From Anaerocolumna sp. (GTDB taxonomy: Bacteria > Bacillota > Clostridia > Lachnospirales > Lachnospiraceae): a stretch of DNA of 64,000 bases. The notes under the pieces were generated by a model that saw only the letters and a list, made by a program, of their open reading frames with translations, searched no databases and had not been told where the DNA came from. Shown here piece by piece: positions 46,146 through 64,000 of this stretch (position 1 is the stretch's first letter; each line of letters starts with the position of its first letter). The stretch spans positions 24,581-88,580 of the forward strand of contig JARBTX010000009.1 of the NCBI GenBank assembly GCA_029239975.1. The letters are read 5' to 3'. Made by a program: the position numbers and the translations under genes.

Positions 46146-47414
46146 CTATTCTACGGTTACACCACTATTATAGCTCATCCATGCCCTGGCGTAATGATTT
46201 TGCAATTCTCTCTTATTTAAATACTTTGTTTCGATAATCGGATCATAGAATGTGAAATTGTCCCAATTACCTGTAGTTAATTGTATGCCCAACTTTTCTT
46301 TATTCATATAAACAGGAGTTCCAGGTAAAGGTGTAAGTAGTGAAAATGTAGATGAAGCACTATCATTTATAGATGATTTTTTATGCTTTAGGGCTAATTT
46401 AATGGTTTTATCGATGGTTTCTTTTGTATCTTCAGGGTTACCAATTATAAAGGAACAAGTTACTAAAACACCATGTGCAAGAAGTGTTTTAACAGCCTTG
46501 TCAATGGTTTGAACTGTAATATTTTTTCCTGCGTGGATACATCCAGCTTTTACCATTTCGCTAACAACAAAGTCATTGACCGTATTGGCTCTTGTTTCAG
46601 CCGCCCATTTAATTTTTAAATTTCTATTTCGTATCTCCCTACATATTTCAACACAGTGTTTTTCTTCTGCTGTAAATGTATCATCTATAAATACAAAATA
46701 TGTAATATTGTACTTCTTATTTAAAAATTCTATTTCATCAACTACATTTTTTGCACTTCTCATTCTATATCTTGCTCCAGAGATTACGCTTGCTGCACAA
46801 AAAATACATTTATACGGACAACCTCTTCCAGTTAGAATAGAACCTGGAAAATTATATCTGTCCATTTTAAACAAATCCCAAGCAGGGCTGTCTATTGTAT
46901 TAATATCTTCTATTAGAGGTCTAGGAGGTGTTGATGTAAATTTACCGTCCTTAGTGTAGCTAATTCCCAAAATATCATCTATCGGTTTTTTATTAATAAA
47001 TGCATCAACTAATAGTGGAACAGTTTCTTCTCCCTCGAACATTGACACAACATCTATATATCCTGAATTAAGAACTTCTTCGGGTATGAAAGACGCATGA
47101 GGTCCACCCATTATTATTTTAATATCTGGAAACTGTTCTTTTATCTGTTTCGCAATTTTTATTCCATTACCATAGTTGGAAATAAATGAACTAATACCGA
47201 TAACCTTGGCTTGTTGCGTTTCAATTTCGTTCAAAATATCCTTTATTGATAATCTTTCAGGTCCTACATCTATGATACTAACTGAAAATCCTTTATTTCT
47301 TATTGCAGAAGCTAGATAACCTAATCCCAGTGGAGGCGTACTATAGGAAATCTTTTCAGCAAAATAATTTTTCAAAACTACAGGCTGTGGATATATTAGA
47401 ATCACTTGTTTCAT
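46146..47414 (-). CDS. Cobalamin-binding-type radical SAM enzyme, paralogue D (degenerate)
   Basis: MKQVILIYPQPVVLKNYFAEKISYSTPPLGLGYLASAIR; GRGCPYKCIFCAAS (CxxxCxxC); lacks the QIGAESGDNNILKTI block present in paralogues. Confidence 0.85.
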   Translation of the reverse strand: MKQVILIYPQPVVLKNYFAEKISYSTPPLGLGYLASAIRNKGFSVSIIDVGPERLSIKDILNEIETQQAKVIGISSFISNYGNGIKIAKQIKEQFPDIKIIMGGPHASFIPEEVLNSGYIDVVSMFEGEETVPLLVDAFINKKPIDDILGISYTKDGKFTSTPPRPLIEDINTIDSPAWDLFKMDRYNFPGSILTGRGCPYKCIFCAASVISGARYRMRSAKNVVDEIEFLNKKYNITYFVFIDDTFTAEEKHCVEICREIRNRNLKIKWAAETRANTVNDFVVSEMVKAGCIHAGKNITVQTIDKAVKTLLAHGVLVTCSFIIGNPEDTKETIDKTIKLALKHKKSSINDSASSTFSLLTPLPGTPVYMNKEKLGIQLTTGNWDNFTFYDPIIETKYLNKRELQNHYARAWMSYNSGVTVE

Positions 47415-47449
47415 AAAGCATCCCTCCAATAAGTATATTAATAGATTTT

Positions 47450-48793
47450 TTATTGTACACAACTGCTAAGTAATGCACTGTTTAATTCTTGACTAAATCT
47501 ACATCTTTCATCATCAGGTTCGCCATACCAGTCACCATGGTTCGCTAAGGCAAATGCTCTACAACTTCCATCACACAAAATATTTTCTGCGCAGTCCTTA
47601 CACTTTTCTACAGAACTAATTTCTAAACTTCTTATTTTCTTTAATAATTCTGAATTATTCCATATGTAATCCAGACTATTCTCTCTGATATTACCAGCTA
47701 TTTCATTGATTTCATACAGTCTCCAACATGAAGTCATATCTCCATTTGCAAGTATTATCAAAGTGGAAAGACATGAACCACAAGCTTTATTTAAATGTTC
47801 ATCTTCAATTATATCCTTATAAATAAGTGCAAATATATGTGCACCTAAAATAACATCTCCATGTTTTGGAAACAACGACCTATAGTAAGTATTAAATTCG
47901 AGTTTTTCCTCATAGGTAAGGCCTATATCTTGCCAGTTAGTTGAAGCCCTTCCAATTTTTCTAATTGTGTCTATACAAAGCACTTTTACTTTAAGTTCAT
48001 TTGCTTTTTCGATTATTTTCTTATACTCATGGAAGTTAAATCTAGATATTACTGTATTTAAACAAACTGGGACCTTCGCGTCCACTAATTTATGGATTTG
48101 AGGTATAAGTTTATCATACTTACCTTTTCCCCTACAACTGTCATGGGTTTCAGCACTAGCTCCATCCATGCTTACCTCTACTGCTCCCAGTGCACATTTT
48201 GATAATCGGCTTATATCTTCATCCTTTACCAGGGATGTATTAGTGCAGACACTTACTATGATACCTTTTGAATTGGCATACTCTACTATATCCAGTAAGT
48301 TTTTATTAAGAAATGGTTCTCCCCCCGTTAATGTTAAGTGTAAAACCTTGTATTTTGCTAATTCAGTTATAATATCAATTATCTCTTCGTAGGTTAGATC
48401 GCTCTTATTTTGAATACTTGAATTAGGAAAACAGTGTTTGCAAGAAAAATTACATGAATTGGTTATTCGCATATTTACTAAATCTATCGGAGGTGTCTTT
48501 TGTTCTAATTCAGGAAGTTTCCCATTCTCTATATTCGTAGTTAAAATATCATTTACTAATAAATACTTTAGTATTTCTTTAGCATGAAATCCTTCGATGG
48601 GTTCATAATTTTGTTCATCATATCTTGTAGCTAATTCTTCAATTGTGCGCTTACCATCTATGTCTTCTAGAAGTCGACTTACAGCTAAATGCATTTTTAA
48701 TCTTGATTCATAATCATAAATATTGTATAAAATAACAACACCCTGTGTCTTCTTAAAAAATACATGCTTATGCAAATATATCTGTTCTCCCAT
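47450..48793 (-). CDS. SPASM radical SAM peptide-maturase with N-terminal PqqD-like domain
   Basis: ITNSCNFSCKHC cluster; C-term CGSCLSTL...CWRLYE...CKDCAENILCDGSCRAFA SPASM Cys pattern. Confidence 0.88.
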   Translation of the reverse strand: MGEQIYLHKHVFFKKTQGVVILYNIYDYESRLKMHLAVSRLLEDIDGKRTIEELATRYDEQNYEPIEGFHAKEILKYLLVNDILTTNIENGKLPELEQKTPPIDLVNMRITNSCNFSCKHCFPNSSIQNKSDLTYEEIIDIITELAKYKVLHLTLTGGEPFLNKNLLDIVEYANSKGIIVSVCTNTSLVKDEDISRLSKCALGAVEVSMDGASAETHDSCRGKGKYDKLIPQIHKLVDAKVPVCLNTVISRFNFHEYKKIIEKANELKVKVLCIDTIRKIGRASTNWQDIGLTYEEKLEFNTYYRSLFPKHGDVILGAHIFALIYKDIIEDEHLNKACGSCLSTLIILANGDMTSCWRLYEINEIAGNIRENSLDYIWNNSELLKKIRSLEISSVEKCKDCAENILCDGSCRAFALANHGDWYGEPDDERCRFSQELNSALLSSCVQ

Positions 48794-48826
48794 TAAGATA
48801 TCCCCCTAAACTCTTAAATTATTTAA

Positions 48827-49762
48827 TTAATTGGTTTGCAATCTCTTTACCCTCTTATAAAAATAAATGTAAGTTGTAAATAAAACTATTATTAAAACCA
48901 ACAAGGTTATTACTTGAATTGCTGGAAACCTATTATATACCAATATTTCTCTAAAACCAGATTGAATTGGTAGATAGTCTACTTTACCCATCTCATATAA
49001 TAGTGTTTCTGCGAGTACTACTATCAATGACAACGGTGTAGTAAAAACCACCATCTGCTCTAATGTTTTAAATGGTAATGTAATAATAGCTGCTACAACA
49101 GTAGTAAAAAGGGCAGTAATTATTATAAGACAAGTTAATCCTAAAAAATTATTTTGTTGTTGATCGGTGATAAATAGAAACACAAATATAGCTATTATAA
49201 CACTTAAAAACCCGCTTAACGCCTTACTTATTATTAATTCAACATGTGAAACTGGCGAAAGCAGCAACGCCGACATTGTATCATTTTTTCTTTCACTTAC
49301 AAAAAGAACTGGATTTCCCGCTATACCAATCATTAAAATTAATAATGTACATAGAAAAGCATTATACGCTATTTTACTAGACTGACCATTTACTATGTTT
49401 ATATTAACTGATTCATTAGAGCCCGATACTAGGCCACTTTTTATTTTCCCCAAAACGGAAGGATCAGTCGTATAGGTTACAACCTCTTTTGTCTGTGGGT
49501 TTATTACTGCATCCACTTTTTTGTTATTTAACAACTTCATTGCTTTTTCACTTGAGCTCTCATATATTATACTGTTATCCGCAAATCCCATGAAAGATGT
49601 ATCTTCAGTTGAGCTTAAGATACATACTTTCACATCACCACTTAATAAACTTGGTGCAAATAGCCCAATAAGCGGGAGTAGCATCGCTATAATAATAATC
49701 ATACTGCTCTCTTTTAAATCTTTTATAAAAATGGTTAAAATTCTACTTATTGAATTCAGCAT
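48827..49762 (-). CDS. ABC-2 type transporter permease
   Basis: NatB-like topology; LFVSERKNDTMSALLLSPVSHVELIISKAL. Confidence 0.8.
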   Translation of the reverse strand: MLNSISRILTIFIKDLKESSMIIIIAMLLPLIGLFAPSLLSGDVKVCILSSTEDTSFMGFADNSIIYESSSEKAMKLLNNKKVDAVINPQTKEVVTYTTDPSVLGKIKSGLVSGSNESVNINIVNGQSSKIAYNAFLCTLLILMIGIAGNPVLFVSERKNDTMSALLLSPVSHVELIISKALSGFLSVIIAIFVFLFITDQQQNNFLGLTCLIIITALFTTVVAAIITLPFKTLEQMVVFTTPLSLIVVLAETLLYEMGKVDYLPIQSGFREILVYNRFPAIQVITLLVLIIVLFTTYIYFYKRVKRLQTN

Positions 49763-50694
49763 ATACGCTCTCTCCTTAAAGAAACCTTAAATATATTGTT
49801 CAAACATAAAAATAATACAAAAAAGATAATCAATTGAAATGATACGGTCATTAACAAGGTAATTACATTATTTTCGAGAGCATATATTATTTTTTTATAA
49901 TTCAACATTCTATTTATGAAAAAAGGAAGAAGTATTAATAATGCTGATATCGGATAAAAACTATATGAAATATACTTATTTTTACTTAAAATACCTGCAA
50001 GTAATCCAAAAACACTATAGATTGGACCAAGTAAAAATAAAACTATAAAGACGTTTATTGATAAATTGAATGAATAGGTAAAATACAAACATCCCACAAA
50101 ATAAATTAGACAAGTGGATATAATTTTAGCAGGCAAAATAGTACTGTTTTTGATAGGAGAGAGTACGATTGCTACCAGTGTATTTTTTTCATCGGTATAC
50201 ATCTTATGAGGAACAAATAAACACACAAACGTCAAAATAAAAGAAAAACTATTGAATATATTACGAAGATTATTATTTTCATCAGCTGAGTCTAATTCCT
50301 TATTTAATACCTTTAAACTATACTCTGTAGTATTTTTTAAGTTTTCAAATATCCCATTTACATCAACAGCTTTAGAACTCTTTGGGTTTAAAATAACCTG
50401 AAATGAGTTATTATCATTTTCATGAAAAATATATGCAACCATATCATTTGAATTGTTTATCTTAGTAAGACCCTCATTATGATCAGACACATTAACAATA
50501 CTTGCTTCTGGTATAGTATTGCTTAAGAGATCATTCGTCTTTTTATCATTTCCTACAGTTAATATATTTATAGATTCGCTTTTTACATCAACCAATACCG
50601 AATTGTATTTGCTAAGAAACATAACCATAATGATTGACATCAGCAAAAAACCATAGTATTTTAAAAACCCAAAATTTAACTCTTTCCAATACAT
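49756..50694 (-). CDS. ABC-2 type transporter permease
   Basis: MYTDEKNTLVAIVLSPIKNSTILPAKIIST; multi-TM C-terminal half. Confidence 0.8.
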   Translation of the reverse strand: MYWKELNFGFLKYYGFLLMSIIMVMFLSKYNSVLVDVKSESINILTVGNDKKTNDLLSNTIPEASIVNVSDHNEGLTKINNSNDMVAYIFHENDNNSFQVILNPKSSKAVDVNGIFENLKNTTEYSLKVLNKELDSADENNNLRNIFNSFSFILTFVCLFVPHKMYTDEKNTLVAIVLSPIKNSTILPAKIISTCLIYFVGCLYFTYSFNLSINVFIVLFLLGPIYSVFGLLAGILSKNKYISYSFYPISALLILLPFFINRMLNYKKIIYALENNVITLLMTVSFQLIIFFVLFLCLNNIFKVSLRRERIC

Positions 50695-50700
50695 ACTCTA

Positions 50701-51525
50701 TCATCCTTTCGTAACATCAAGAAATACTTTTTCAAGAGTAATTTCTTTGGAATGAATTGAAACTATTGTATCTAATGGTAATTGCGCTATCTCAGCTAAT
50801 TGAGTTATATTAAATTCTTTTTCGGACTCCTTGGTTTTTACAATTAATTTTTGTGAGCAGTTATCTGCTTTTAAAGAATTAATGTCTTCATGTACCATAA
50901 TTCTACCTTTGTCAATGATTGCAATATCGTCACAAAGTTCCTCTGCTTCATTCATATAATGTGTAGTCAAGAATATTGTTTTTCCTGCTTGCTTAAGCCT
51001 TCTAATCATTTCTCTTATTTCAACAGCAATATTAGGATCTAATCCTGATGTAGGTTCATCCATAAAAATCAGTTCAGGATCGTGTAACAAAGCCCTAGCA
51101 ATTAAAACTCTTTGTTTATAACCTTTTGAAAGTTTCTTTATAGGCATTTTAGAATGACTAACAAGTTCCAATTCCTTTATTACCTCTTGAACTCGCATTG
51201 TACCAACTCTATATAACTTTGAAAAAAATTTTAAGTTATTTTCTACAGACATATCTTCATATAAGCTTATCTGCTCTGGAACCACACCTATTTTTCTGGC
51301 TAGTTGTTTTTCATTTACAGTTGGATTTATTCCGCATACTAAAATATCTCCTTCACTTGGCAATAGAAGCCCAGTTAGCATTTTAATGGTAGTACTTTTT
51401 CCAGCTCCGTTAGTACCCAAAAATCCAAATACACTACCCTTTTCAACTGAAAATGAGATATTATTAACTGCGATTCTTTCTTTAAACCTTTTAGTCAAAT
51501 TTGATACTCTTATTATTTCGTTCAT
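50701..51525 (-). CDS. ABC transporter ATP-binding protein
   Basis: Walker A GTNGAGKSTT; LSKGYKQRVLIARALLHDPELIFMDEPTSGLDP. Confidence 0.95.
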   Translation of the reverse strand: MNEIIRVSNLTKRFKERIAVNNISFSVEKGSVFGFLGTNGAGKSTTIKMLTGLLLPSEGDILVCGINPTVNEKQLARKIGVVPEQISLYEDMSVENNLKFFSKLYRVGTMRVQEVIKELELVSHSKMPIKKLSKGYKQRVLIARALLHDPELIFMDEPTSGLDPNIAVEIREMIRRLKQAGKTIFLTTHYMNEAEELCDDIAIIDKGRIMVHEDINSLKADNCSQKLIVKTKESEKEFNITQLAEIAQLPLDTIVSIHSKEITLEKVFLDVTKG

Positions 51526-51724
51526 TGTTGCCGCACCCCTAGTAATTAAATTTTACTTATAACTTGTTAAATGAATTTCACAAAATAAGAATAGTTAAAC
51601 TACTCAAAATCTTATGCATTTTCTGGTGTATTGGCTAATCTTCTGAGACTTTAGAAATAAAAAGTATTTAATGATCTCCTATGGAAATTTTCGTAAAACT
51701 AATGTGTGAACTGTATTTTTTATC

Positions 51725-51982
51725 TTAAAAAGTTATCGATAATTTATCTTTTATTTCGATTATGGTTAATCCTTGCGCTTTTAAATTCTTAATTGTTTCT
51801 AAAGTTTTAACTGCATTTTCACGATTATATCTCCGAGTTAGTCTTTCTTCCACTTGCTCATATTGAAGTAACCCCACCTCAGTATAATATTTTAGAGTAC
51901 TATATCTTGTATCTGTTAACTTTACAAGCTCCCCTATAGTAACACTCTCTTTATTTTCGTCTGCATTACATCGCCTAGCCAA
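51725..51982 (-). CDS. Small MerR-like HTH protein
   Basis: TIGELVKLTDTRYSTLKYYTEVGLLQYEQVEERLTRRYNRENAVKTLETI. Confidence 0.75.
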   Translation of the reverse strand: MARRCNADENKESVTIGELVKLTDTRYSTLKYYTEVGLLQYEQVEERLTRRYNRENAVKTLETIKNLKAQGLTIIEIKDKLSITF

Positions 51983-52001
51983 AACACGTCCTCCACTCTT
52001 A

Positions 52002-52697
52002 CTAAACTATTCCAGCAATTACTGTTATTATTAAAACTGTATCTAATTCATCTACCACTTGCTTTACTAAAGAGGTGGTAGCCCAATTATCACTTTTCTT
52101 TATTTCATCAATCCGAGTCTTTAACTGGTCAACTTCGTGTTTAGAAAAATAATCTACAAGAATACCACTTTGATGCATTAAGGAAGCGAGTATTACAGTC
52201 TCAGCCATCATGGTTCCTGATTCAAGCAATTCTGCTCTAAGTTTTTCTATAATATGATTAACATCGGACATATTCGTATTGAATAGAATTTTATCTTTTA
52301 AAAAGCCATTCTTTATCTCTAGATTCAAACAATCCTTTTTATCAAGACTATCAATTACGCTCTCTACTATTCTTTTAATTGGTTTATTCGAATATCCAGC
52401 TAAATAGTGTTCCATCCATTTTTTAAGTGTCTTTGGTTTTTCATTGGATAAATCTGCATAGATAACATTCAAATACTCAACGTCACTATCAATTGGATTC
52501 TTAATAATTACTTTTTGCTTATCATCTAATGCTATTTTTTCTGACAGAAATAGCTCAAAAATAGCAGCTAGTGCGATACAGCCAGGATATTTCCCTTCAT
52601 AGAGATTCCCATTATTCTTCTTCACCTTGTTTAAAAGACAAAGTGTATACTCTTGGCATACAGTTAAATTCTTCAATATAGACCTCCTATTATTCAT
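52002..52697 (-). CDS. GPP34-like (Golgi phosphoprotein 3 family) protein
   Basis: EYTLCLLNKVKKNNGNLYEGKYPGCIALAAIFELFLSEKIALDDKQKVIIKN resembles GPP34 N-terminal layout; alpha-helical remainder. Confidence 0.5.
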   Translation of the reverse strand: MNNRRSILKNLTVCQEYTLCLLNKVKKNNGNLYEGKYPGCIALAAIFELFLSEKIALDDKQKVIIKNPIDSDVEYLNVIYADLSNEKPKTLKKWMEHYLAGYSNKPIKRIVESVIDSLDKKDCLNLEIKNGFLKDKILFNTNMSDVNHIIEKLRAELLESGTMMAETVILASLMHQSGILVDYFSKHEVDQLKTRIDEIKKSDNWATTSLVKQVVDELDTVLIITVIAGIV

Positions 52698-52727
52698 TTT
52701 ATTATTTATTATGATATGCTACATATT

Positions 52728-52893
52728 ACTTACTACTTTTTACTTACTACTTTTTACTTACTACTTTTTATTTACTACTTTTTACTTACTACTTACATTA
52801 TATGATTATTACTTACTACTTATTACTTATTACTTATTACTTATTACTTATTACTTATTACTTACTACTTACTACTTACTACTTACTTTTTAC
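52728..52893. repeat. 7-bp-period tandem array (ACTTACT / ACTTTTT / ACTTATT units)
   Basis: Four consecutive 14-bp units acttactacttttt from 52728 to 52783 (fourth with one substitution), then runs of ACTTATT and ACTTACT heptamers after a short interruption. Confidence 0.9.
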
Positions 52894-52953
52894 AAATATT
52901 ACTACAGTTTACTTTATTTGTCAATTGTAATTAGTAAAAAAATAGAAACTTTT

Positions 52954-54300
52954 TTATTGATTCATATTTACTAGATTATTTTGCTCATCCACTACTAATC
53001 TTCCTGCTGTGTAGGACGTCCAAGCTCTGGCATATTCATTTTGTAGATCTCTCTTAGTTAAGTGTTTTGTTTCAATTATTGGATCATAAAAAGTGAATTT
53101 GTCCCAGTTAGAAGTGATAAGCTTTACTCCTAATTTTTCTCTATCGGTGTATACTGGTGTTCCTGGTAATGGTGTTAATAAAGCATATTTTAAAGAGCAA
53201 TATTTATTTGGAGCTAAATTTTTAAGTTTTAGTGAAAACTCAATAGTTTTAGATATTGTCTCTTTTGTATCATCCGGATTACCAATAATAAATGAGCAAA
53301 CTACTGAGATACCATGAGCTAAGAAAGTTTTAACCGCTTTCTCAATAGTTTTAGTCGTAATATTTTTACCTATCGTTTTTAGTATATTGTTATCTCCTGA
53401 TTCTGCACCAATTTGTACGTGCATACAACCGGCCTTTGCCATTTCAGATACCACTCTGTCATTAACAGTGTTAGCTCTTGCTTCCGCTTCCCACTTTATT
53501 TTTAAACCTCTTCTTCGTATCTCTCTGCATATATCAATACAATGGTTCTCATCTGCTGTGAAGGTATCATCTGCGAAAAAAAAGTTCTTCAAATTATATA
53601 CATTATGTAAATATTCAATTTCATCCACTACATTTTTAGTGCTTCGAATTCTATATCTAGCACCTGAAACCACACTTGCAGCACAAAAGATACATTTATA
53701 AGGGCAACCTCTACCCGTAAGTATAATTCCAGGCTGAACATACTTATCTATTTTAATTAAATCCCAAGCCGGAAAATCAATGTGATCAATATTTTCGATC
53801 ACTGTTCTAGGGGCAGTTTTAACAAACTCCCCATCCTTTATGAAACATATACCGGTTATATCATCTAAAGGTTTATCATTAATAAATGCATCTATAATCT
53901 CTGGTAGAGTTACTTCTCCCTCAAAAAGTGACACTACATCAATACATCCTGATTTTAATACTTCTTCCGGAATAAAAGATGCTTGTGGTCCACCCATTAC
54001 TATTTTTATATAAGGAAGTTTTTCTTTTATATGTTTGGCTATTCTGATTCCATTGCCATGATTTGCTATAAAAGAACTGATACCTACTACTTTAACTTGA
54101 TTCTCTTCTATTTTTTTTAGTAAATCAGTAATTAACATTCTTTCTGGGCCAATATCACATAAGTCAACCGTGAAGCCTTTTTTTCTGATTGCTGACGCTA
54201 AATATCCCAATCCTAGTGGAGGATTATGATACATTATACTTTCAGCAAATATATCTTTAAGTACCACGGGTTGAGGATTAATTAACAATACTTGTTTCAT
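52954..54300 (-). CDS. Cobalamin-binding-type radical SAM enzyme, paralogue C
   Basis: MKQVLLINPQPVVLKDIFAESIMYHNPPLGLGYLASAIR; GRGCPYKCIFCAAS; QIGAESGDNNILKTI. Confidence 0.9.
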   Translation of the reverse strand: MKQVLLINPQPVVLKDIFAESIMYHNPPLGLGYLASAIRKKGFTVDLCDIGPERMLITDLLKKIEENQVKVVGISSFIANHGNGIRIAKHIKEKLPYIKIVMGGPQASFIPEEVLKSGCIDVVSLFEGEVTLPEIIDAFINDKPLDDITGICFIKDGEFVKTAPRTVIENIDHIDFPAWDLIKIDKYVQPGIILTGRGCPYKCIFCAASVVSGARYRIRSTKNVVDEIEYLHNVYNLKNFFFADDTFTADENHCIDICREIRRRGLKIKWEAEARANTVNDRVVSEMAKAGCMHVQIGAESGDNNILKTIGKNITTKTIEKAVKTFLAHGISVVCSFIIGNPDDTKETISKTIEFSLKLKNLAPNKYCSLKYALLTPLPGTPVYTDREKLGVKLITSNWDKFTFYDPIIETKHLTKRDLQNEYARAWTSYTAGRLVVDEQNNLVNMNQ

Positions 54301-54662
54301 TCAACACTCCTCCATTTAGTATCAATAATATCAACGGAATCACAGAATTTAATAAATTCTTGAAAATCAATAGCCAATTCATCCTTCTGGATGTTAAAAT
54401 CTTGAGATAAAATATCTAGTATATCATCAACTGTATTTATACCATCGCACTGCTCCCAGATTTTTGTTCCAGTTAAATTTAAATTTATACAAATACCACC
54501 AACGCCCAAACCATCTGTATCTTTATTGTAGTCGGATTGATGTTCTAATGTTTTCATTAACTTATCTGTTAGAATTGCTGTTACTCTTGCTGTTCCATCA
54601 TCTTGGTAATTCCAAACAATTGACTTCCTTTTGGGTGTAAACTCTAAAAATTCTTGTTCCAT
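54297..54662 (-). CDS. PqqD-like RiPP recognition element protein, C
   Basis: 'LNLTGTKIWEQCDGINTVDDILDILSQDFNIQKDELAIDFQEFI' PqqD-type pattern; overlaps next gene start by 4 nt. Confidence 0.85.
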   Translation of the reverse strand: MEQEFLEFTPKRKSIVWNYQDDGTARVTAILTDKLMKTLEHQSDYNKDTDGLGVGGICINLNLTGTKIWEQCDGINTVDDILDILSQDFNIQKDELAIDFQEFIKFCDSVDIIDTKWRSVE

Positions 54663-54729
54663 AAGTTACCTTTAACTATGTATTAATATCAAATACATTG
54701 TTTTTTCCTTTCTTAATTTGTATGTTTAA

Positions 54730-56025
54730 CTAAACCACTAAGCAACATGCTCTTGAAAATTCGTTCTGAAGCTCCTTAACTGTTAAATACTTTGTTTCAA
54801 TAACCGGATCATGAAATGTGAATTTGTCCCATTTATTAGTAGTAAGTCTTATACCCAACTTTTCTCTATTGATATAAACAGGAGTACCAGGCAATGGTGT
54901 TAGTAACGAAAATTTCATGACGGTGCAATTTTTAGGTGCTAATTTTTTTAGTTTAATTGCAAAATCAATTGTTTTATTAATTGTTACCTTATCATCATTC
55001 GGATTTCCTATGATAAAGGAGCAAATTACAATAATTCCATGTCCAAGAAGAATCTTTGCAGCCTTTTCAATGGTTTGAGTTGTTACATTTTTACCAATTG
55101 TTTTTAATATATTATTATCACCTGATTCGGCACCGATTTGAGCGTGTGTGCAACCTGCCTTAACCATTTCAGATACTACTTTATCATTTACGGTATTGGC
55201 TCTTGTCTCTGCTGTCCATTTTATTTTCAGATTCCTTCTTCTTATTTCTCTGCATATATCAATACAATGTTTTTCATCTGCAGTGAAGGTATCGTCAGCA
55301 AAACAAAATGTAGAAATATTATACTCTTTATTTAAGAACTCAATTTCATCTACAACATTATTTGTACTTCTCATTCTATAGCTAGCTCCTGAAATAACGC
55401 TAGCTGCACAAAAAATACATTTGTAAGGACACCCGCGACCTGTTAAAATGATACCAGGTGTGGTGTAATTTTTTAATTTAAACAAGTCCCAAGCAGGAAA
55501 GTCAATTTCATCAATATTCTCGATTACAGGTCTGGCAGGAGTTTTAACAATACTTCCATCCTTAATAAATGCAATACCTAAAATTTCTTCAATTGACTTA
55601 TTATGAATAAAAGCTTCTACTAACTCCGGAAAAGTGATTTCACCTTCAAATATAGAGACAACATCTATACATCCTGTTTGTAAAACCTCATCTGGAATAA
55701 AGGAAGCCTGTGGTCCACCCATTATTATTTTAACGTTAGGAAACGTTTCTTTTATTTTATTTGCTATTTTAATTCCACTACTATAATTGGATATAAATGC
55801 ACTTATACCCACTACTTTAACTTTATGATGTTCAATTTCATCTAGAATATCTTGGATTAACAACCTTTCAGGACCCACATCAATAATGTCAACAGAGAAT
55901 CCCTTTTTCCTAACTGCCGATGCAAGATATCCCAATCCTAACGGTGGACTCACAAACATTACATTTTCAGCAAATGCATCTTTTAATACTACTGGCTGTG
56001 GATTAATAAGGATTACATCTTTCAT
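54730..56025 (-). CDS. Cobalamin-binding-type radical SAM enzyme, paralogue B
   Basis: Same motif set; C-terminus differs (RACCLVV) apparently by a terminal frameshift. Confidence 0.9.
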   Translation of the reverse strand: MKDVILINPQPVVLKDAFAENVMFVSPPLGLGYLASAVRKKGFSVDIIDVGPERLLIQDILDEIEHHKVKVVGISAFISNYSSGIKIANKIKETFPNVKIIMGGPQASFIPDEVLQTGCIDVVSIFEGEITFPELVEAFIHNKSIEEILGIAFIKDGSIVKTPARPVIENIDEIDFPAWDLFKLKNYTTPGIILTGRGCPYKCIFCAASVISGASYRMRSTNNVVDEIEFLNKEYNISTFCFADDTFTADEKHCIDICREIRRRNLKIKWTAETRANTVNDKVVSEMVKAGCTHAQIGAESGDNNILKTIGKNVTTQTIEKAAKILLGHGIIVICSFIIGNPNDDKVTINKTIDFAIKLKKLAPKNCTVMKFSLLTPLPGTPVYINREKLGIRLTTNKWDKFTFHDPVIETKYLTVKELQNEFSRACCLVV

Positions 56026-56387
56026 TCAACACTCCTCCAATTAATATCCAAAATAGTCAACGAATCACAATAATTTAAAAAACTAATAAAATCATCTAGT
56101 AATTCCTCTTTTTTGACCTGAAACTCCTGTGATAATTTATTTAATATATCTTCAACCGTATCAATACCATCACATAGTTCCCAAATTTTTGTTCCAGTAC
56201 TATTTAAACTTATACTTGCACTATCTCCTAAAGCAATATCAACATCCGATAACTCATCCTCATAAAACTTACTTAACTGTTCTTGCTTATCATTATTTAC
56301 AGCTATAATTTCAACATTTCCATCATCTTTGTAACTCCATAAAATTGCCATTCTTCTTGGCGTTAAACTTAAAATATTATTATCCAC
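56022..56387 (-). CDS. PqqD-like RiPP recognition element protein, B
   Basis: 'LNSTGTKIWELCDGIDTVEDILNKLSQEFQVKKEELLDDFISFL'; paralogue of 54297..54662. Confidence 0.85.
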   Translation of the reverse strand: MDNNILSLTPRRMAILWSYKDDGNVEIIAVNNDKQEQLSKFYEDELSDVDIALGDSASISLNSTGTKIWELCDGIDTVEDILNKLSQEFQVKKEELLDDFISFLNYCDSLTILDINWRSVE

Positions 56388-56440
56388 AATATACCCTCCT
56401 AATAAATATCCCTGTTAATTAAGACATTAATAATGTTCTA

Positions 56441-57796
56441 TTAAGATATATTGCGTTTTAATATGTAATCAAACTCTCCCTCGTCACGTCTTCTTACAAG
56501 ATTAATTGACGTACAGCAAAAGTTATTATCCATAGGACCATCCAATCTGTTTGACTGTGCATAGGCTATTGCTCTACAACCTCCTGGACAGGCTTCAAAA
56601 CATTCACATTTAACACAAGATTCAATGTCTGTCACTTTCAATTCTCTCATTCTCTCTAGCACTTGCGAACTTGTCCATATATCTGTAAAACTCTGTTCTC
56701 TAATATTACCTGCCTTAAATTCGTCAAAATCCTTAAAAAGCATACATGGATAAGCAGATCCCTCTGCATTTATATAACAGACTGAAACTCCAGCATTACA
56801 ACAGTGTTCACCCTTGCCATCTGTTTCGGCTAGTTCAGCAAGCCTATCGAATCCCATCCCTTTGCTTAATCTTTCATTTTGTGCTGCTACAACAAGGCTA
56901 TTTACTCTAAGTTGTTCCATTTGCTTTTGACTTAAGAGTAGATGCTTGTTAGTGGTTGCATTACCCTTCTCTTGGATTTCTGAAAGTTCTATTTCTTTCG
57001 CATCTAACTTAGTAACAAGATCTACAATCTTATGATATTGGTCAAAATTATGAGTTGTGATTGTGGTTGCTACGCCAATATCTATACCCTTTTCTTTACA
57101 AAGCTTCATTACTCCTATTGTCTTATCAAAGTTACCTTCTCCTCTGATCTCATCATGTGTTAAAGCATCTGCCCCATCAATGCTGAATCGTAGTAATACG
57201 TTGGTATCCTTAATTTGATCCAGAAGTTTTTCAGTTATTAGTGTTCCATTTGTAAACACAGTAACCCTAATATTCTTTTCAGTACATTTTTTAATAATAT
57301 CTACTATATCTTCTCTAACAAATGGTTCACCACCAGTAAGTACAATCCTATACACCTTCATCCAATGTAATTCATCTATTAGGTCGAAGATTTCTTTTGT
57401 GGTTAAATCGTTGATTTCTCTAGAACCACCTTCAAGGCAATGAATACAATTTAGATTACATTTAGAAGTTACCTCAAATATTACACTGTCTATTTGTGGG
57501 TCAATTTCTAATAAATTTACGTACCCTCTCTGCTCACAATCGTCTGTAACAAAATCCGAACTATAAATATCATTGAGTACTGATTTTACATCAGATAATA
57601 AGTCCTCATATTTCTCACCATTGAATTTTGCATGTAAACTACTTGCAATTTCTTCATCAGTTGCATACTTAACAAATTTTGATAGAAAAACCTGAGTACC
57701 AGTATCATTTAGAACTAACTTTCTCTCACTTCTAGTATCGTATAACATGGAACCTTTGGCACTATCCTTCCAGATAACCTGCTTCTTTAAATACAT
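56441..57796 (-). CDS. SPASM radical SAM peptide-maturase with N-terminal PqqD-like domain
   Basis: VTSKCNLNCIHC; C-term CCNAGVSVCYINAEGSAYPCMLF...CVKCECFEACPGGCRAIA. Confidence 0.9.
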   Translation of the reverse strand: MYLKKQVIWKDSAKGSMLYDTRSERKLVLNDTGTQVFLSKFVKYATDEEIASSLHAKFNGEKYEDLLSDVKSVLNDIYSSDFVTDDCEQRGYVNLLEIDPQIDSVIFEVTSKCNLNCIHCLEGGSREINDLTTKEIFDLIDELHWMKVYRIVLTGGEPFVREDIVDIIKKCTEKNIRVTVFTNGTLITEKLLDQIKDTNVLLRFSIDGADALTHDEIRGEGNFDKTIGVMKLCKEKGIDIGVATTITTHNFDQYHKIVDLVTKLDAKEIELSEIQEKGNATTNKHLLLSQKQMEQLRVNSLVVAAQNERLSKGMGFDRLAELAETDGKGEHCCNAGVSVCYINAEGSAYPCMLFKDFDEFKAGNIREQSFTDIWTSSQVLERMRELKVTDIESCVKCECFEACPGGCRAIAYAQSNRLDGPMDNNFCCTSINLVRRRDEGEFDYILKRNIS

Positions 57797-57817
57797 ATTT
57801 ATTCCTCCCTAGTATAT

Positions 57818-58156
57818 TCATTCATTTAAGAAAATTAATTTGCTAAAAAACTTTATTAAGTTATACTTCATTGTCCCTTTGCATAAACATAAACCATTCT
57901 TTTTTAGAAATAAGTAAATTTGAAATACATCATCTTTTACATCATTTGATTGTACATTGTATTTATTCGCAACACTATTTGCTATATCTTCTAAACTTTT
58001 CGTACCATCAATTTCAGAACATATTTCATAAGTTGTTTTATTAATATCATACTTTTGATCATTAATCTTGTCCCATAAAACATAGGAATCGTTATCTTCA
58101 ATAAATTCAATATGGGATAGTGATTCAATTATAATATCTTTTTTATTTTTTCGCAT
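57818..58156 (-). CDS. PqqD-like protein, A
   Basis: 'INKTTYEICSEIDGTKSLEDIANSVANKYNVQSNDVKDDVFQIYLFLKKNGL'. Confidence 0.8.
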   Translation of the reverse strand: MRKNKKDIIIESLSHIEFIEDNDSYVLWDKINDQKYDINKTTYEICSEIDGTKSLEDIANSVANKYNVQSNDVKDDVFQIYLFLKKNGLCLCKGTMKYNLIKFFSKLIFLNE

Positions 58157-59465
58157 TTTTCACTCCACCCATTGCATAACTAAGCCATACTTTTACATTA
58201 ATGTTTCTGAGTTCCTTTATTGATAGATATTTTGTTTCCACAATTGGATCATGAAATGTATATTGATCCCAATTATCTGAGATAAGCTTAAGACCCAATT
58301 TATCTCTATTTTTGTATATAGGAGTACCTGGTAAAGGAGTTAGCATGCCGAATTTACATGTAGAAAAATCATTAGAGAGTCTTTTTAATTTGATAGCAAA
58401 ATCAGCAGTTTTCGTTATAGTTTCTTCTGTATCCTCAGGATTACCAATTATAAATGAGGAAACTACTGTTATACCATGGGATAAAAATATCTTAACTGCT
58501 CTTTCAATGATTTGAGTAGTTATATTTTTACCTATAGTTTTAAGAATATAGTTATCACCTGACTCAGCACCAATTAAGACGTGTTTGCATCCCGCTTTTG
58601 CCATTTCAGATACGACCCTATCATTTACAGTATTTGCTCTTGCTTCAGCATCCCACTTTATTTTCAACCCTCTATTTCTTATCTCCCTACAGATGTCTAT
58701 ACAATGATTTTCATCAGCTGTAAATGTATCATCTGCAAAAAAGAAACTTGAAATATTATACTTCTGATTTAAAAATTCAATCTCATCAACCACATTTTTC
58801 GTATTTCTAATTCTATATCTTGCACCTGAGATTGCACTTGCAGCACAAAAAATGCACTTGTATGGGCACCCTCTTCCCGTCAATATGATTCCCGGTAGAG
58901 TATATTTTTCCATATTAAACAAATCCCACGCAGGAAATTCAATACTATTAATGTCTTCGATTAGTGGTCTAGGTGGAGTAGTAATAATCTCACCATCACT
59001 GTTAACATAAGCAATCCCTAGTATATTATCAATTGGTTTATTATTTATAAATGCATCGACTACCTCTGGTACAGTTATCTCTCCCTCAAACATTGTTACA
59101 ACATCAATGCAACCTGTTCTTAATACTTCTTCAGGGATAAATGATGCTTGTGGTCCCCCCATCATAATCTTTACATCTGGGTATTGTTCTTTTATTTGTT
59201 TTGCTATTTTTATTCCATTATAATGGTTGGATATAAATGAGCTAATTCCAACAACACTAACTTGGTGCTTTCCTATTTCATCTAATATATCTTTCATAAG
59301 TGCTCTTTCCGGTCCAACGTCAAGAATTTGAACAGTAAATCCCGCTTTTCTTATTGCAGAAGCCAAATAACCTAATCCCAAAGGGGGATTAGTATACATA
59401 ATTCTTTCTGCGAATGAACCTTTAAACACTACTGACTGAGGATTGATAAGAAAAACTTGTTTCAT
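58143..59465 (-). CDS. Cobalamin-binding-type radical SAM enzyme, paralogue A
   Basis: MKQVFLINPQSVVFKGSFAERIMYTNPPLGLGYLASAIR; GRGCPYKCIFCAAS; IGAESGDNYILKTI. Confidence 0.9.
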   Translation of the reverse strand: MKQVFLINPQSVVFKGSFAERIMYTNPPLGLGYLASAIRKAGFTVQILDVGPERALMKDILDEIGKHQVSVVGISSFISNHYNGIKIAKQIKEQYPDVKIMMGGPQASFIPEEVLRTGCIDVVTMFEGEITVPEVVDAFINNKPIDNILGIAYVNSDGEIITTPPRPLIEDINSIEFPAWDLFNMEKYTLPGIILTGRGCPYKCIFCAASAISGARYRIRNTKNVVDEIEFLNQKYNISSFFFADDTFTADENHCIDICREIRNRGLKIKWDAEARANTVNDRVVSEMAKAGCKHVLIGAESGDNYILKTIGKNITTQIIERAVKIFLSHGITVVSSFIIGNPEDTEETITKTADFAIKLKRLSNDFSTCKFGMLTPLPGTPIYKNRDKLGLKLISDNWDQYTFHDPIVETKYLSIKELRNINVKVWLSYAMGGVKNAKK

Positions 59466-59553
59466 TTTCTTCTTCCTTTCTTTATAAAACATTTTACAGA
59501 CTATATTGATGTCTCATTGAATTAATATTTTAGACAAATAGTATGGTAGCTCC

Positions 59554-60285
59554 TTACGAATTATTTCTATCATAGATTTTTTCAAATCCACTTCTAACAT
59601 AAAAATAATATCCTATCGTACCAAATAATATTTTCAAATATCTTGGATTTTTTAATATATATGCATATACTCTTTGTCCATCTGTTCCTTTAATTGGTAA
59701 AAGAGATAATAGGTCAATATACAAAAACATCACACAAACTGCAAATACACCTATTTGCATAACATCAATACCAATAATACGAAATATAATTTTTATAATA
59801 ATTGCTAAAAAGGCAACAATACAAATCGGTAAAGCTGGACCAGCAAAAAGTATTGCCATAAGATCATCAGGTGCAATTTTTCTATCTCTACTAAAATTAG
59901 TCCTTATTCCAGCAATTGTATACGGTTTGTATGAAACAGAAACTACCTCTACATCAAATATCTTTGCAAATGACATATGGCAAGCCTCATGAAAAGCAAT
60001 AGAAAAATAAAAAACTTCCATTAGCATTATCATGGCTAATGTAAATGTAAAATTCTTAATAATTAATCCAATAACACTAGCAATAATTGCTTCAAGTATA
60101 ATAATCGGAAAGTGATACCTATGTATTAGGCACGTAACCCAGATTGTAAATTTAAATCCATTATTTATATTTTTAGGTTTACTAATTATAAGTCCTCTTG
60201 ATATCAAAATAACATCCTTTCCTTTTCTTAAGATAATCAATACCAAATAATAATTTTCTTTACTCATAATGTAATAGTATGGCAA
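59554..60285 (-). CDS. M50-like membrane zinc metalloprotease
   Basis: FSIAFHEACHMSFAKIFDVEVVSVSY (HExxH) and SLLPIKGTDGQRV (LDG-like) in multi-TM protein. Confidence 0.75.
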   Translation of the reverse strand: MPYYYIMSKENYYLVLIILRKGKDVILISRGLIISKPKNINNGFKFTIWVTCLIHRYHFPIIILEAIIASVIGLIIKNFTFTLAMIMLMEVFYFSIAFHEACHMSFAKIFDVEVVSVSYKPYTIAGIRTNFSRDRKIAPDDLMAILFAGPALPICIVAFLAIIIKIIFRIIGIDVMQIGVFAVCVMFLYIDLLSLLPIKGTDGQRVYAYILKNPRYLKILFGTIGYYFYVRSGFEKIYDRNNS

Positions 60286-60349
60286 AAGCTTTATTATACA
60301 GAATTATTCGGTATTGATTATCATTTATTTTTTAGATTTTAATTCTATC

Positions 60350-60538
60350 TTACCAACAATGTTTTGTATAAATTGTACCGATAATACCAGCTCCAGCAGT
60401 AACTGCTGCTGCACCTACTGGTGCTGCTGCTGCACTATATGCATCTTCTCCTGCATTAATAGAAGTTTTTTGAATTGTTGCAGTTGGTTTTTCATATCTC
60501 ATACATTCGTTACTCATACCCTTAATTTCGTTTTCCAT
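60350..60538 (-). CDS. Candidate RiPP precursor peptide (62 aa)
   Basis: Strong RBS (agaaggaga) 8 nt before ATG; MENEIKGMSNECMRYEKPTATIQKTSINAGEDAYSAAAAPVGAAAVTAGAGIIGTIYTKHCW; sits between maturases and C39 exporter. Confidence 0.8.
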   Translation of the reverse strand: MENEIKGMSNECMRYEKPTATIQKTSINAGEDAYSAAAAPVGAAAVTAGAGIIGTIYTKHCW

Positions 60539-60638
60539 AATTAAATTCTCCTTCTCATTTTTATGTATTGTTATATGCTTTGGGCATACTATTACCGTTA
60601 TTGATATTCAGATCTTAATTCGTTTATTTCGCAATTAC

Positions 60639-62798
60639 CTATTCTATAGCCACTAACTCACTGTTATTCCAATTTGCTTCATACAATCTTGCATATTCTC
60701 CATTGTTTTTCATTAATTGGTCATGAGTACCACTTTCTATTAGCTCCCCATTATCGATTACAAATATTACATCTGAATCAATTACTGTAGATAAGCGATG
60801 TGCAATAATAATTCTTGTACAACCAATATCTCTTAAATATTCGGTCACTATTTTCTCATTGACGTTATCAAGCGAACTAGTTGCTTCATCTAAAATTATT
60901 ATTTTGGGCTCATTTATAATTGCTCTGGCAAGTGCTATTCTTTGCCTCTGTCCTCCAGAAAAGTTCATTCCCATCTCAGATACGATGGTATGATATCCCA
61001 TTGGTAAGTTCTGTATATCTTCTGATATTTGTGCTATTTTACAGGCTTTTTCTACTTCTTCTAGTGTTACCTCTTCACGATCCATTGATATATTATCCAA
61101 AATGGATTTATTAAATAGCATAATATCTTGAGGAACAATTCCAATCTGTCTTCTTAAATTTTTTGTATCTAATTGATCTAAAATAATGTCGTCATAATAA
61201 ATATTTCCTTCCGTGGGTTTATATAATCCAACAAGCAGCTTTGCTAATGTACTCTTACCACAACCTGATTTACCAACGATTGCAACCTTATCGCCACTTT
61301 TAATTTCTAAACTAATATTACGAATTACTTGCTTTGAAAGTTTCGTATATGAAAATGAAATATTCTCCAATTTAATATTTCCGTTAATGCTTTTTTGAAT
61401 TAAACCTTGTGTTTCATTCTCTTTTTGTGATAGTACAATATCACTTATTCGTTCAAGATATAAACTGCTATTAATAAAATTAACCCATGTATTAAAAATA
61501 GAATTGGCTAATGAAAAAAATGTACTACTAAGAGAAAAAAACGCAATCATTTGTCCTGTTGTAAGCTGTGATTTAACCACCAGGTACGTACTTACTGATA
61601 ATACGACTAATGGAGATATAACATGTATAAATGACATTAATGTATCTAAAAAATTACTTATTTTCTCTTTGTTGTAATATTTGTTTATATAATCTCTATA
61701 TTTTTTATACCAATTCCCATACACATCATCTTCAATGGCAGACATTTTAATGCTTAGTATGGAAAATATTGCTTCCACCTGAGTCCCTTGTACTTCTCCC
61801 TGTTTTGCTATCAAATATTTACTATATTCAGTAACATATCTTTGTACTAAAAATACCATTACCAAATTTATAATAAATAAAACAATTGAAGTACAAGCTA
61901 ATACAACTGATTGGTGAAGCATGTAAATTACAATAAAGCATACAGCCCCAAGATCAATAATTCCTTTTATCATTTGGTTTGCAAAAGTCTCACGTAATAC
62001 CATACTGCTATTTAAGGAATATATTAAATCGTATTTATTTCGTACATCAAAAAATTTGTATGGTACATTTAATAAATGTGAAAACAAATTTGAAGACAGC
62101 GCCTCATCAACATAAACTTTGAGCTTTACTAAACTTGTGCCTTTCAAATAATAAAAAATTATATATACAATAGAAAAGATTACTAATATAAGAAAATAAT
62201 TTGATATATATTTTATATCTTTGATGGATTTTATATTATCAATTAAATTTTGTATAAATATAGGCATTGCCAAGGTTAACAAATATGTAATTAAGGATAA
62301 TAAAATAATTTTTATAAATAATGTTCTTTTTTGTAATAATATTGGGATAAAATATTTCCAGGTTGCATAATCTTGCTTTTGTGGAATGAATTTCTCATTT
62401 GGGTAGCTACTTATTGCAAACCCAGAAAAAAACTCACTTAATTCCGGTTTTTCCAGTTTATATCCACCATATGCTGGATCAATAATATAAGCGTATTTTT
62501 TAGTCATTCTCTCTAATATTACAAAATGATTATTACCACAATAAAGAATAGCTGGTAATTGGATTTTTTCTAAATTCTCTGTTGAACATTTATAGATTTT
62601 AGTATCTAAATTAAATTTATTCATTAAACTGTTCAATTGCTTTAAGGTACTTCCATCCCTGCCTATTTCTAAATATTCACGAAGTTCCTTTAGTGTAACA
62701 TGACTCTTATAATACCTTAACATCATGCAAACACAGCTCAATCCACACTCTGTCTGTTGAAAAGCTTCAACGAACGGAACACTTTTTCTAAAACTCAT
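60639..62798 (-). CDS. Bifunctional C39 peptidase / ABC exporter (LanT/NHLP type)
   Basis: C39: QTECGLSCVCMML, NHFVIL, IDPAYGG; ABC: GKSGCGKSTL, FSGGQRQRIALARAIINEPKIIILDEATSSLD. Confidence 0.95.
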   Translation of the reverse strand: MSFRKSVPFVEAFQQTECGLSCVCMMLRYYKSHVTLKELREYLEIGRDGSTLKQLNSLMNKFNLDTKIYKCSTENLEKIQLPAILYCGNNHFVILERMTKKYAYIIDPAYGGYKLEKPELSEFFSGFAISSYPNEKFIPQKQDYATWKYFIPILLQKRTLFIKIILLSLITYLLTLAMPIFIQNLIDNIKSIKDIKYISNYFLILVIFSIVYIIFYYLKGTSLVKLKVYVDEALSSNLFSHLLNVPYKFFDVRNKYDLIYSLNSSMVLRETFANQMIKGIIDLGAVCFIVIYMLHQSVVLACTSIVLFIINLVMVFLVQRYVTEYSKYLIAKQGEVQGTQVEAIFSILSIKMSAIEDDVYGNWYKKYRDYINKYYNKEKISNFLDTLMSFIHVISPLVVLSVSTYLVVKSQLTTGQMIAFFSLSSTFFSLANSIFNTWVNFINSSLYLERISDIVLSQKENETQGLIQKSINGNIKLENISFSYTKLSKQVIRNISLEIKSGDKVAIVGKSGCGKSTLAKLLVGLYKPTEGNIYYDDIILDQLDTKNLRRQIGIVPQDIMLFNKSILDNISMDREEVTLEEVEKACKIAQISEDIQNLPMGYHTIVSEMGMNFSGGQRQRIALARAIINEPKIIILDEATSSLDNVNEKIVTEYLRDIGCTRIIIAHRLSTVIDSDVIFVIDNGELIESGTHDQLMKNNGEYARLYEANWNNSELVAIE

Positions 62799-62824
62799 AA
62801 TTTAAATACCCCTGTAAGTTTTAT

Positions 62825-62917
62825 TTACCTATAATCTCTTTTTTCTATTTCATCCAGAACTGTCTGTTTACTATACATTTTTGAAACTTTATCAACATTT
62901 AAAATGTTTTCTTTCAT
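62825..62917 (-). pseudogene. Truncated N-terminus resembling an ABC ATPase (30 aa)
   Basis: MKENILNVDKVSKMYSKQTVLDEIEKRDYR* preceded by AGGGGAA; first strand of an ABC NBD then stop. Confidence 0.45.
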
Positions 62918-62952
62918 GGTTCCCCTTATATCTTCATATCACTATATTTCCA

Positions 62953-64000
62953 TTACTCTATACATAATATATTAGGAAATACTTCTGGCTCGAACAACTG
63001 CAATAAACCATATCCAACACCTGATAATCCAATCATCAAACTCATATCTTCTGTTTGCTTTAGCTCCCCACTATCCCAGCTTTGTGTAAAAAATTTATCA
63101 ATGAAGTTTTCAACAGTTGCTAAACATTCTATTCTTAAGGTTTCATCATTTAAAATTAGTGAAGCATAATTTAATATAAGTAAATTGCCTATATCTCCAT
63201 GACATAAACAGTAATTATTACCAAATCCACTATTCTTTACTTCTTCTATCGCTATATAAATATCATGTTTAATATCTTCATTTATAAAACCATTTTTATA
63301 TAACAATAGTCTACTTAATAAAATGCCTGGAGCACCATGACACCATTTGGTATAATAGACTGCATCCTCCATCTGTTTTCGCCAATTATTTTTTTGTTTA
63401 TCAAACATGCTATTCTCATAGCAAAGTGAACTTGTTATAGTTTTAATTATGTCCTCATTTTTAGTTATTTCATATAACCGGATTAATTGAGAAATTACAC
63501 CAGCATTTCCATGTGAAAAACCTACATAACCTTCTTCACCCCAAGTAATCTGTTTGCCATCTTTTAATACAATTTCCTTTTGTTTTATTATCTTATAGAG
63601 TTCATTACAAGTATCTATTAGTAATTCTTTGGTTTCTATATTATCTGTATGCTCATATATAGATAAAAGCACACCTATCGTTCCTGAAACACCCGATACA
63701 ACATCATAACTTTGATCAGAATCACACAATTCTTTTATAATCCATACTTTTTCATATACAAAATTAATCAGTTCATTATTATTAAGAATTCTCCCTATAT
63801 GAAAAATGGAATATAAGCATCCGCTAATACCTGAGAATACACCAATTTTTGTAGTACCAAAATCTGAAATTTCATTGATAGAATTAATCACAACTGTTAT
63901 TGCTTCAAGACCTGCATTTTTTTAGTTTTCATCCCCTGTAATAGAACCCAAAGAAGATAAAAATAAAGATATACAACTATATCCAGAATATAAATCATTT
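62953..64000 (-). pseudogene. LanM/LanC-type lanthionine synthetase cyclase domain, interrupted by in-frame stop and running off the window
   Basis: GFSHGNAG, WCHGAPG, LCHGDIGN LanC zinc-ligand motifs; upstream in the same frame NDLYSGYSCISLFLSSLGSITGDEN*KNAGLEAITVV, with TAA at 63922-63924. Confidence 0.8.

Follow-up and report, generated by a model that had tools for sequence, protein, structure and literature searches.

More than one B12-binding radical S-adenosylmethionine (rSAM) enzyme acts on a single peptide in the polytheonamide-type proteusins (PoyB/PoyC). Among the B12-binding rSAM enzymes (B12-rSAMs) of ribosomally synthesised and post-translationally modified peptides (RiPPs), ApyD, which bears its own RiPP recognition element (RRE), forms beta-methyltyrosine and belongs to a cluster that includes MNIO and P450 genes (PMC10635010), and PbsB makes an aryl side-chain crosslink (PMC12257519). 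The epipeptide operon epeXEPAB of Bacillus subtilis comprises a small precursor, a radical SAM enzyme, an M50 protease and an ABC immunity transporter (PMC12871923; PMC10885120), and its M50 enzyme, EpeP, processes an rSAM peptide (PMC10885120). Here we describe an rSAM gene cluster in a 64,000-nucleotide stretch of Anaerocolumna sp. DNA (the window). We consider it likely that the genes between 46 and 64 kb of the window represent two adjacent RiPP systems, a class II lantibiotic operon and an RRE-dependent rSAM cluster that starts at a small candidate precursor, P0016.

The source genome is a draft of 180 contigs (92% complete, 6.5% contamination), and the right edge of the window is exactly the end of contig C127. 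At this edge lies a LanC-domain gene that a preliminary description of the window, made from its letters only, had counted as part of one hybrid locus. The LanC domain is present, but instead of a free-standing cyclase the ORF encodes the tail of a class II lanthipeptide synthetase, LanM, cut by the contig end. The gene runs past the end of C127, and its N-terminal complement is found at positions 1-1860 of contig C37. Just two regions in the whole genome matched the LanM model, one at the start of C37 (model positions 2-615; 566 bits, cut-off 304, with DUF4135 present) and one at the end of C127 (model positions 593-931; 284.8 bits). Where they end, C37 and C127 overlap by 70 nt (93% identical), with no comparable match elsewhere in the genome, and we infer that the contigs adjoin there.

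Upstream of lanM on C37 is lanA, a 78-aa open reading frame (ORF) with a GG leader site, whose product scored 61.8 bits against the plantaricin C family model NF000539 (cut-off 29). Because a split LanM is preceded on C37 by a LanA of the plantaricin C family, lanA-lanM-lanT is, as read from the sequence, an ordinary class II lantibiotic operon adjoining the rSAM cluster. It shares with the plantaricin C class II lantibiotics a LanA above the family cut-off, a LanM with dehydratase and cyclase parts, a C39-ABC exporter and the gene order, but differs from them in being divided between two contigs and in having a stop codon in a suspect contig tail; it stands outside the rSAM system.

The stop is an in-frame TAA at 63922-63924, within ~80 nt of the end of C127, and the lanM ORF that begins at the GTG after it extends over 62953-63891. 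Within the 70-nt overlap there are five mismatches between the contigs; at each, C127 has an A on the plus strand in place of the base in C37, and each falls at lanM codon position 1. The TAA would fit the same substitution pattern and is likely an assembly or read artefact. A diversity-generating retroelement was also considered as the source of the differences between the contig tails and was dropped, the strand being wrong. Between lanM and lanT is a 30-aa ORF, without a Pfam match, which we take to resemble the truncated start of a lantibiotic-immunity ABC ATPase.

P0016 has a strong ribosome-binding site, carries a YEKP leader motif (YxKP type), an Ala-rich core and a C-terminal KHCW, and has no lantibiotic-type leader. 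Apart from the 30-aa ABC-like remnant, it is the sole small ORF in the gaps between genes to be preceded by a ribosome-binding site, and no other ribosome-site small ORF in the window has a YxKP leader. The motif was scanned for in the first 35 residues of ribosome-site small ORFs, and was present in 5 of 111 at loci fetched for having a PqqD gene, compared with 1 of 1047 among the controls (Fisher p=4e-5, or 0.003 once related hits are merged); as motif, scan rules and controls were picked after P0016 had been seen and the PqqD loci were few, this association is support rather than proof. Three PqqD proteins (P0009, P0011 and P0013), all above the Pfam gathering cut-off, are interleaved with the rSAM genes. 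The locus has two of the features by which RRE-dependent RiPPs were judged, namely a small precursor with a recognisable leader beside the enzymes and a PqqD/RRE protein beside modifying enzymes. The first PqqD gene overlaps the end of B12-rSAM 1, and the products of the second and third are 45% identical.

Both the B12-binding and the Radical_SAM domain were found by Pfam in four proteins (P0014, P0010, P0008 and P0001), in keeping with the count in the preliminary description, but only the first three are intact. P0001 has lost 15 residues that cover a G-x-E-S-G stretch (the IGAESG strand) kept in nine other aligned sequences, and this fourth enzyme is probably inactive. The four are 68-71% identical to one another, and the paralogs have dN/dS values of 0.07-0.13, a rough ratio because synonymous sites are near saturation. 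Both domains, a CxxxCxxC motif and the fold place the enzymes in the B12-dependent radical SAM superfamily; the AlphaFold model of B12-rSAM 1 (mean pLDDT 79) was matched by Foldseek to TsrM, AprD4, OxsB, CysS, MgmA and TokK.

All of the curated models examined for these enzymes gave scores below their cut-offs. The best NCBIfam match for B12-rSAM 1 was the ApyD model NF050148, at most 207.9 bits against a cut-off of 750, and the RiPP C-methyltransferase model TIGR03975 reached at most 130.9 bits (cut-off 281.85). Corresponding values were at most 204.5 bits for BchE (cut-off 481), 199.8 for HpnJ (578), 151.3 for HpnR (650) and 161.6 for the ladderane model (360). The locus resembles the ApyD aminopyruvatide clusters in having a B12-rSAM in an RRE-dependent RiPP setting, but no MNIO or P450 gene was seen here, and tandem B12-rSAM paralogs occur with stand-alone PqqD proteins. 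It differs from the polytheonamide-type proteusins in that there is no nitrile-hydratase-like leader and the B12-rSAMs fall short of TIGR03975.

P0012 and P0002 have the Radical_SAM and SPASM domains, the architecture of the maturases StsB, PapB, WgkB, CteB and SkfB (sactipeptide, ranthipeptide and Trp-Lys crosslink) and of PqqE. Unlike these, they score below all NCBIfam cut-offs (StsB 157.7 of 625 bits, WgkB 156.4 of 650, mycofactocin 199.3 of 265), and the putative substrate has a single core Cys. Their nearest relatives in the PDB are PqqE, SkfB and CteB. Residues 18-412 of SPASM rSAM 1 align to chain 5wgg, which we take to be CteB, across the N-terminal region of that chain. On this alignment the N-terminal ~100 aa of SPASM rSAM 1 are possibly a fused RRE; the profile comparison for fused RREs on the SPASM enzymes was weak and the AlphaFold N-terminus had a pLDDT below 50. 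The Peptidase_M50 match of the putative leader protease, at 25.6 bits, is just short of the cut-off of 27.2, and its HEACH and LPIKGTDG motifs were read directly. With the epipeptide operon the locus shares precursor, radical SAM, M50 and ABC genes, a likeness at the level of gene types only; epe has a single epimerase, whereas B12-rSAMs, SPASM rSAMs and PqqD proteins are present here.

We infer the substrate and the chemistry of the rSAM cluster from these comparisons, and C-methylation together with a crosslink is most likely. The PqqD proteins, and perhaps the N-terminal domains of the SPASM enzymes too, would bind P0016 through its YEKP leader. Its core, which contains Ala, Val, Ile and Tyr, would be the target of the B12-rSAM paralogs, most likely for C-methylation at different positions, and the SPASM rSAMs would introduce a crosslink, perhaps within the C-terminal KHCW. 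Removal of the leader, within the membrane, would fall to the M50 protease, and the ABC-2 transporter linked to MerR would export the product or protect the producer.

Several observations weigh against this reading of the locus. The gap between lanT and P0016 is 100 nt and no terminator was detected in it, so one transcript could carry both the lantibiotic and the rSAM genes, and the C39 exporter could also serve P0016. P0016 has only one Cys in its core. For the B12-rSAMs, the scores of the ApyD, BchE and HpnJ hidden Markov models are nearly tied, leaving RiPP and non-RiPP families unseparated. Lastly, no homologous cluster, in which precursor and enzymes might be conserved together, was found in any collection searched.

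The close spacing of these same-strand genes would suit one true hybrid, in which LanM, the B12-rSAMs and the SPASM rSAMs work on one shared peptide, either P0016 or LanA, to give a C-methylated lanthionine product. P0016 has Ser/Thr residues in addition to its C-terminal Cys, so that a ring is possible in principle, and a single, possibly lanthionine-bearing product was what the preliminary description had envisaged. We regard this as unlikely. The reading is weakened because a separate LanA exists: LanM has a plantaricin-C-family precursor of its own, with a GG leader, directly upstream, whereas P0016 has no GG-type leader and carries the RRE-type YxKP. LanM might still act on P0016 as well, although nothing favours it.

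The B12-rSAM and PqqD genes might instead act on another peptide or on a non-peptide substrate, with BchE- or HpnJ-like chemistry. BchE and HpnJ score on a level with ApyD, and with this near-tie methylation cannot be distinguished from other chemistry on sequence. Beyond this gene set, the closest relatives are archaeal (best match in the GTDB contig scan, 36% identity), and several of them stand beside a SPASM rSAM. A B12-rSAM gene directly follows a SPASM rSAM gene at several archaeal loci and on a Rhizobium acidisoli plasmid, with no evident RiPP setting (pairs at L016, L017, L018, L020, L022 and L048, the last being the plasmid). No PqqD was found beside the archaeal pairs, nor in loci retrieved for their similarity to the B12-rSAMs, one set of which consisted of loci only ~4 kb long. 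Because the same pairs occur outside RiPP settings, the pairing alone is not diagnostic of a RiPP. The three PqqD genes interleaved with the enzymes and the two SPASM rSAMs nevertheless point to a peptide, and no ribosome-site small ORF in the window other than P0016 has the YxKP leader motif; another substrate is in our judgement improbable.

It is very unlikely that the rSAM cluster is decaying and without product, as the lost strand of B12-rSAM 4, the stop in lanM and the 30-aa remnant might suggest, since B12-rSAMs 1-3 remain intact, dN/dS between the paralogs is low, and the stop lies beside artefact-like patterned mismatches at the contig end.

The searches covered samples of collections excluding metagenomes and used short exact patterns or score limits, by which a relative could be missed. 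Within this scope, no close relatives of the B12-rSAMs were found among 98 relatives at 1e-70, nor in a 399-genome sample of the phylum, the GTDB contig scan, plasmids or IMG/VR. Nor was a homologous cluster returned by the searches with P0016 of 299 genomes of the family and of plasmids, by the search of 391 class genomes with SPASM rSAM 1 or by the PqqD-profile search of the phylum sample. The rSAM gene set is apparently one of a kind.

Two further PqqD loci were recorded. In the same genome, a second locus with PqqD and a radical SAM gene lies at about 8880-9700 of contig C58 (L151, L155), with a candidate precursor, MKEYVKPTFEFVELRAEERLATCFQPYKSPSAFIDWLFSFLGFCNSPCKRSSSGNKHCS, that starts MKEYVKPT. 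In another member of the phylum (L145, 1414-3176), a PqqD gene lies near a weakly related B12-rSAM-like ORF on the opposite strand (E 5e-21); the locus has two short ORFs with YEKP leaders and looks lasso-like.

As shown in Table 1, the whole gene set is on the minus strand and is transcribed leftward from the right edge. Every gene named in the preliminary description was found in place and on that strand, and Pfam agreed with the assignments. Absent from that list were the GPP34-like gene, the MerR gene, the ABC ATPase and the two ABC-2 permeases. The ATPase matched drrA and gallidermin-protection-like models below their cut-offs, and the second permease, which had no Pfam match, was assigned from position and hydrophobicity. 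A promoter-like TTGACA-17-TAATAT lies at 52924-52896, upstream of the gene for the GPP34 protein, whose domain is of the Golgi phosphoprotein 3 type. No Rfam elements were found in 40-64 kb.

Table 1. Features of the gene set, listed in the direction of transcription (positions in the window)
Feature	Protein	Position	Strand	Basis and remarks
lanM, C-terminal LanC part (class II lanthipeptide synthetase)		62953..64000	-	LANC_like 3.1e-66; TIGR03897 tail
30-aa ORF MKENILNVDKVSKMYSKQTVLDEIEKRDYR		62825..62917	-	Ribosome-binding site and reading frame; between lanM and lanT
lanT, C39-peptidase ABC exporter		60639..62798	-	Peptidase_C39 6.4e-32; ABC_membrane and ABC_tran; lanA-lanM-lanT order
Candidate precursor, 62 aa, MENEIKGMSNECMRYEKPTATIQKTSINAGEDAYSAAAAPVGAAAVTAGAGIIGTIYTKHCW	P0016	60350..60538	-	AGGAG ribosome site; YxKP leader
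M50-like intramembrane metalloprotease, proposed leader protease		59554..60285	-	Peptidase_M50 9.2e-6; HEACH, LPIKGTDG
B12-rSAM 1	P0014	58143..59492	-	PF02310 and PF04055; CPYKCIFC cluster motif
PqqD-like RRE 1	P0013	57818..58156	-	PF05402 25.4 bits, cut-off 23.4
SPASM rSAM 1	P0012	56441..57796	-	PF04055 and PF13186
PqqD-like RRE 2	P0011	56022..56387	-	PF05402 51.9 bits; overlaps B12-rSAM 2 start
B12-rSAM 2	P0010	54730..56025	-	PF02310 and PF04055
PqqD-like RRE 3	P0009	54297..54662	-	PF05402 44.6 bits; overlaps B12-rSAM 3 start
B12-rSAM 3	P0008	52954..54300	-	PF02310 and PF04055
GPP34-domain protein		52002..52697	-	PF05719 2.1e-17; inside cluster
Small MerR-type regulator		51725..51982	-	PF13411 8.9e-13
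ABC transporter ATPase, putative export or self-immunity		50701..51525	-	ABC_tran 5.6e-32
Two ABC-2 type permeases		48827..50694 (48827-49762, 49756-50694)	-	PF12698 for first
SPASM rSAM 2	P0002	47450..48793	-	PF04055 and PF13186; best NCBIfam StsB 157.7 bits, cut-off 625
B12-rSAM 4	P0001	46146..47462	-	45-nt in-frame deletion, loss of IGAESGDNNILKTI-type strand

The idea of an rSAM RiPP locus of an undescribed type, which the preliminary description had put forward, agrees with the plausible precursor and with enzymes that fall below every family cut-off examined. We propose tentatively, and rate a little short of even, an undescribed RiPP class built on several B12-rSAM paralogs, of which two are each paired with a separate PqqD protein. 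The paralogs would C-methylate a single peptide rich in Ala, Val and Ile several times over, or rewire it in some other way, and this peptide would also receive a SPASM crosslink and possibly LanM tailoring. The locus also illustrates that a contig end, together with a lantibiotic operon next door, can create the appearance of a hybrid cluster. Since the B12-rSAMs and SPASM enzymes lie under every curated cut-off examined, known members give no basis for predicting their chemistry. If the proposal is true, nature would offer here a test of how B12-rSAM duplicates that have dedicated, stand-alone PqqD partners divide the sites of one peptide among themselves.

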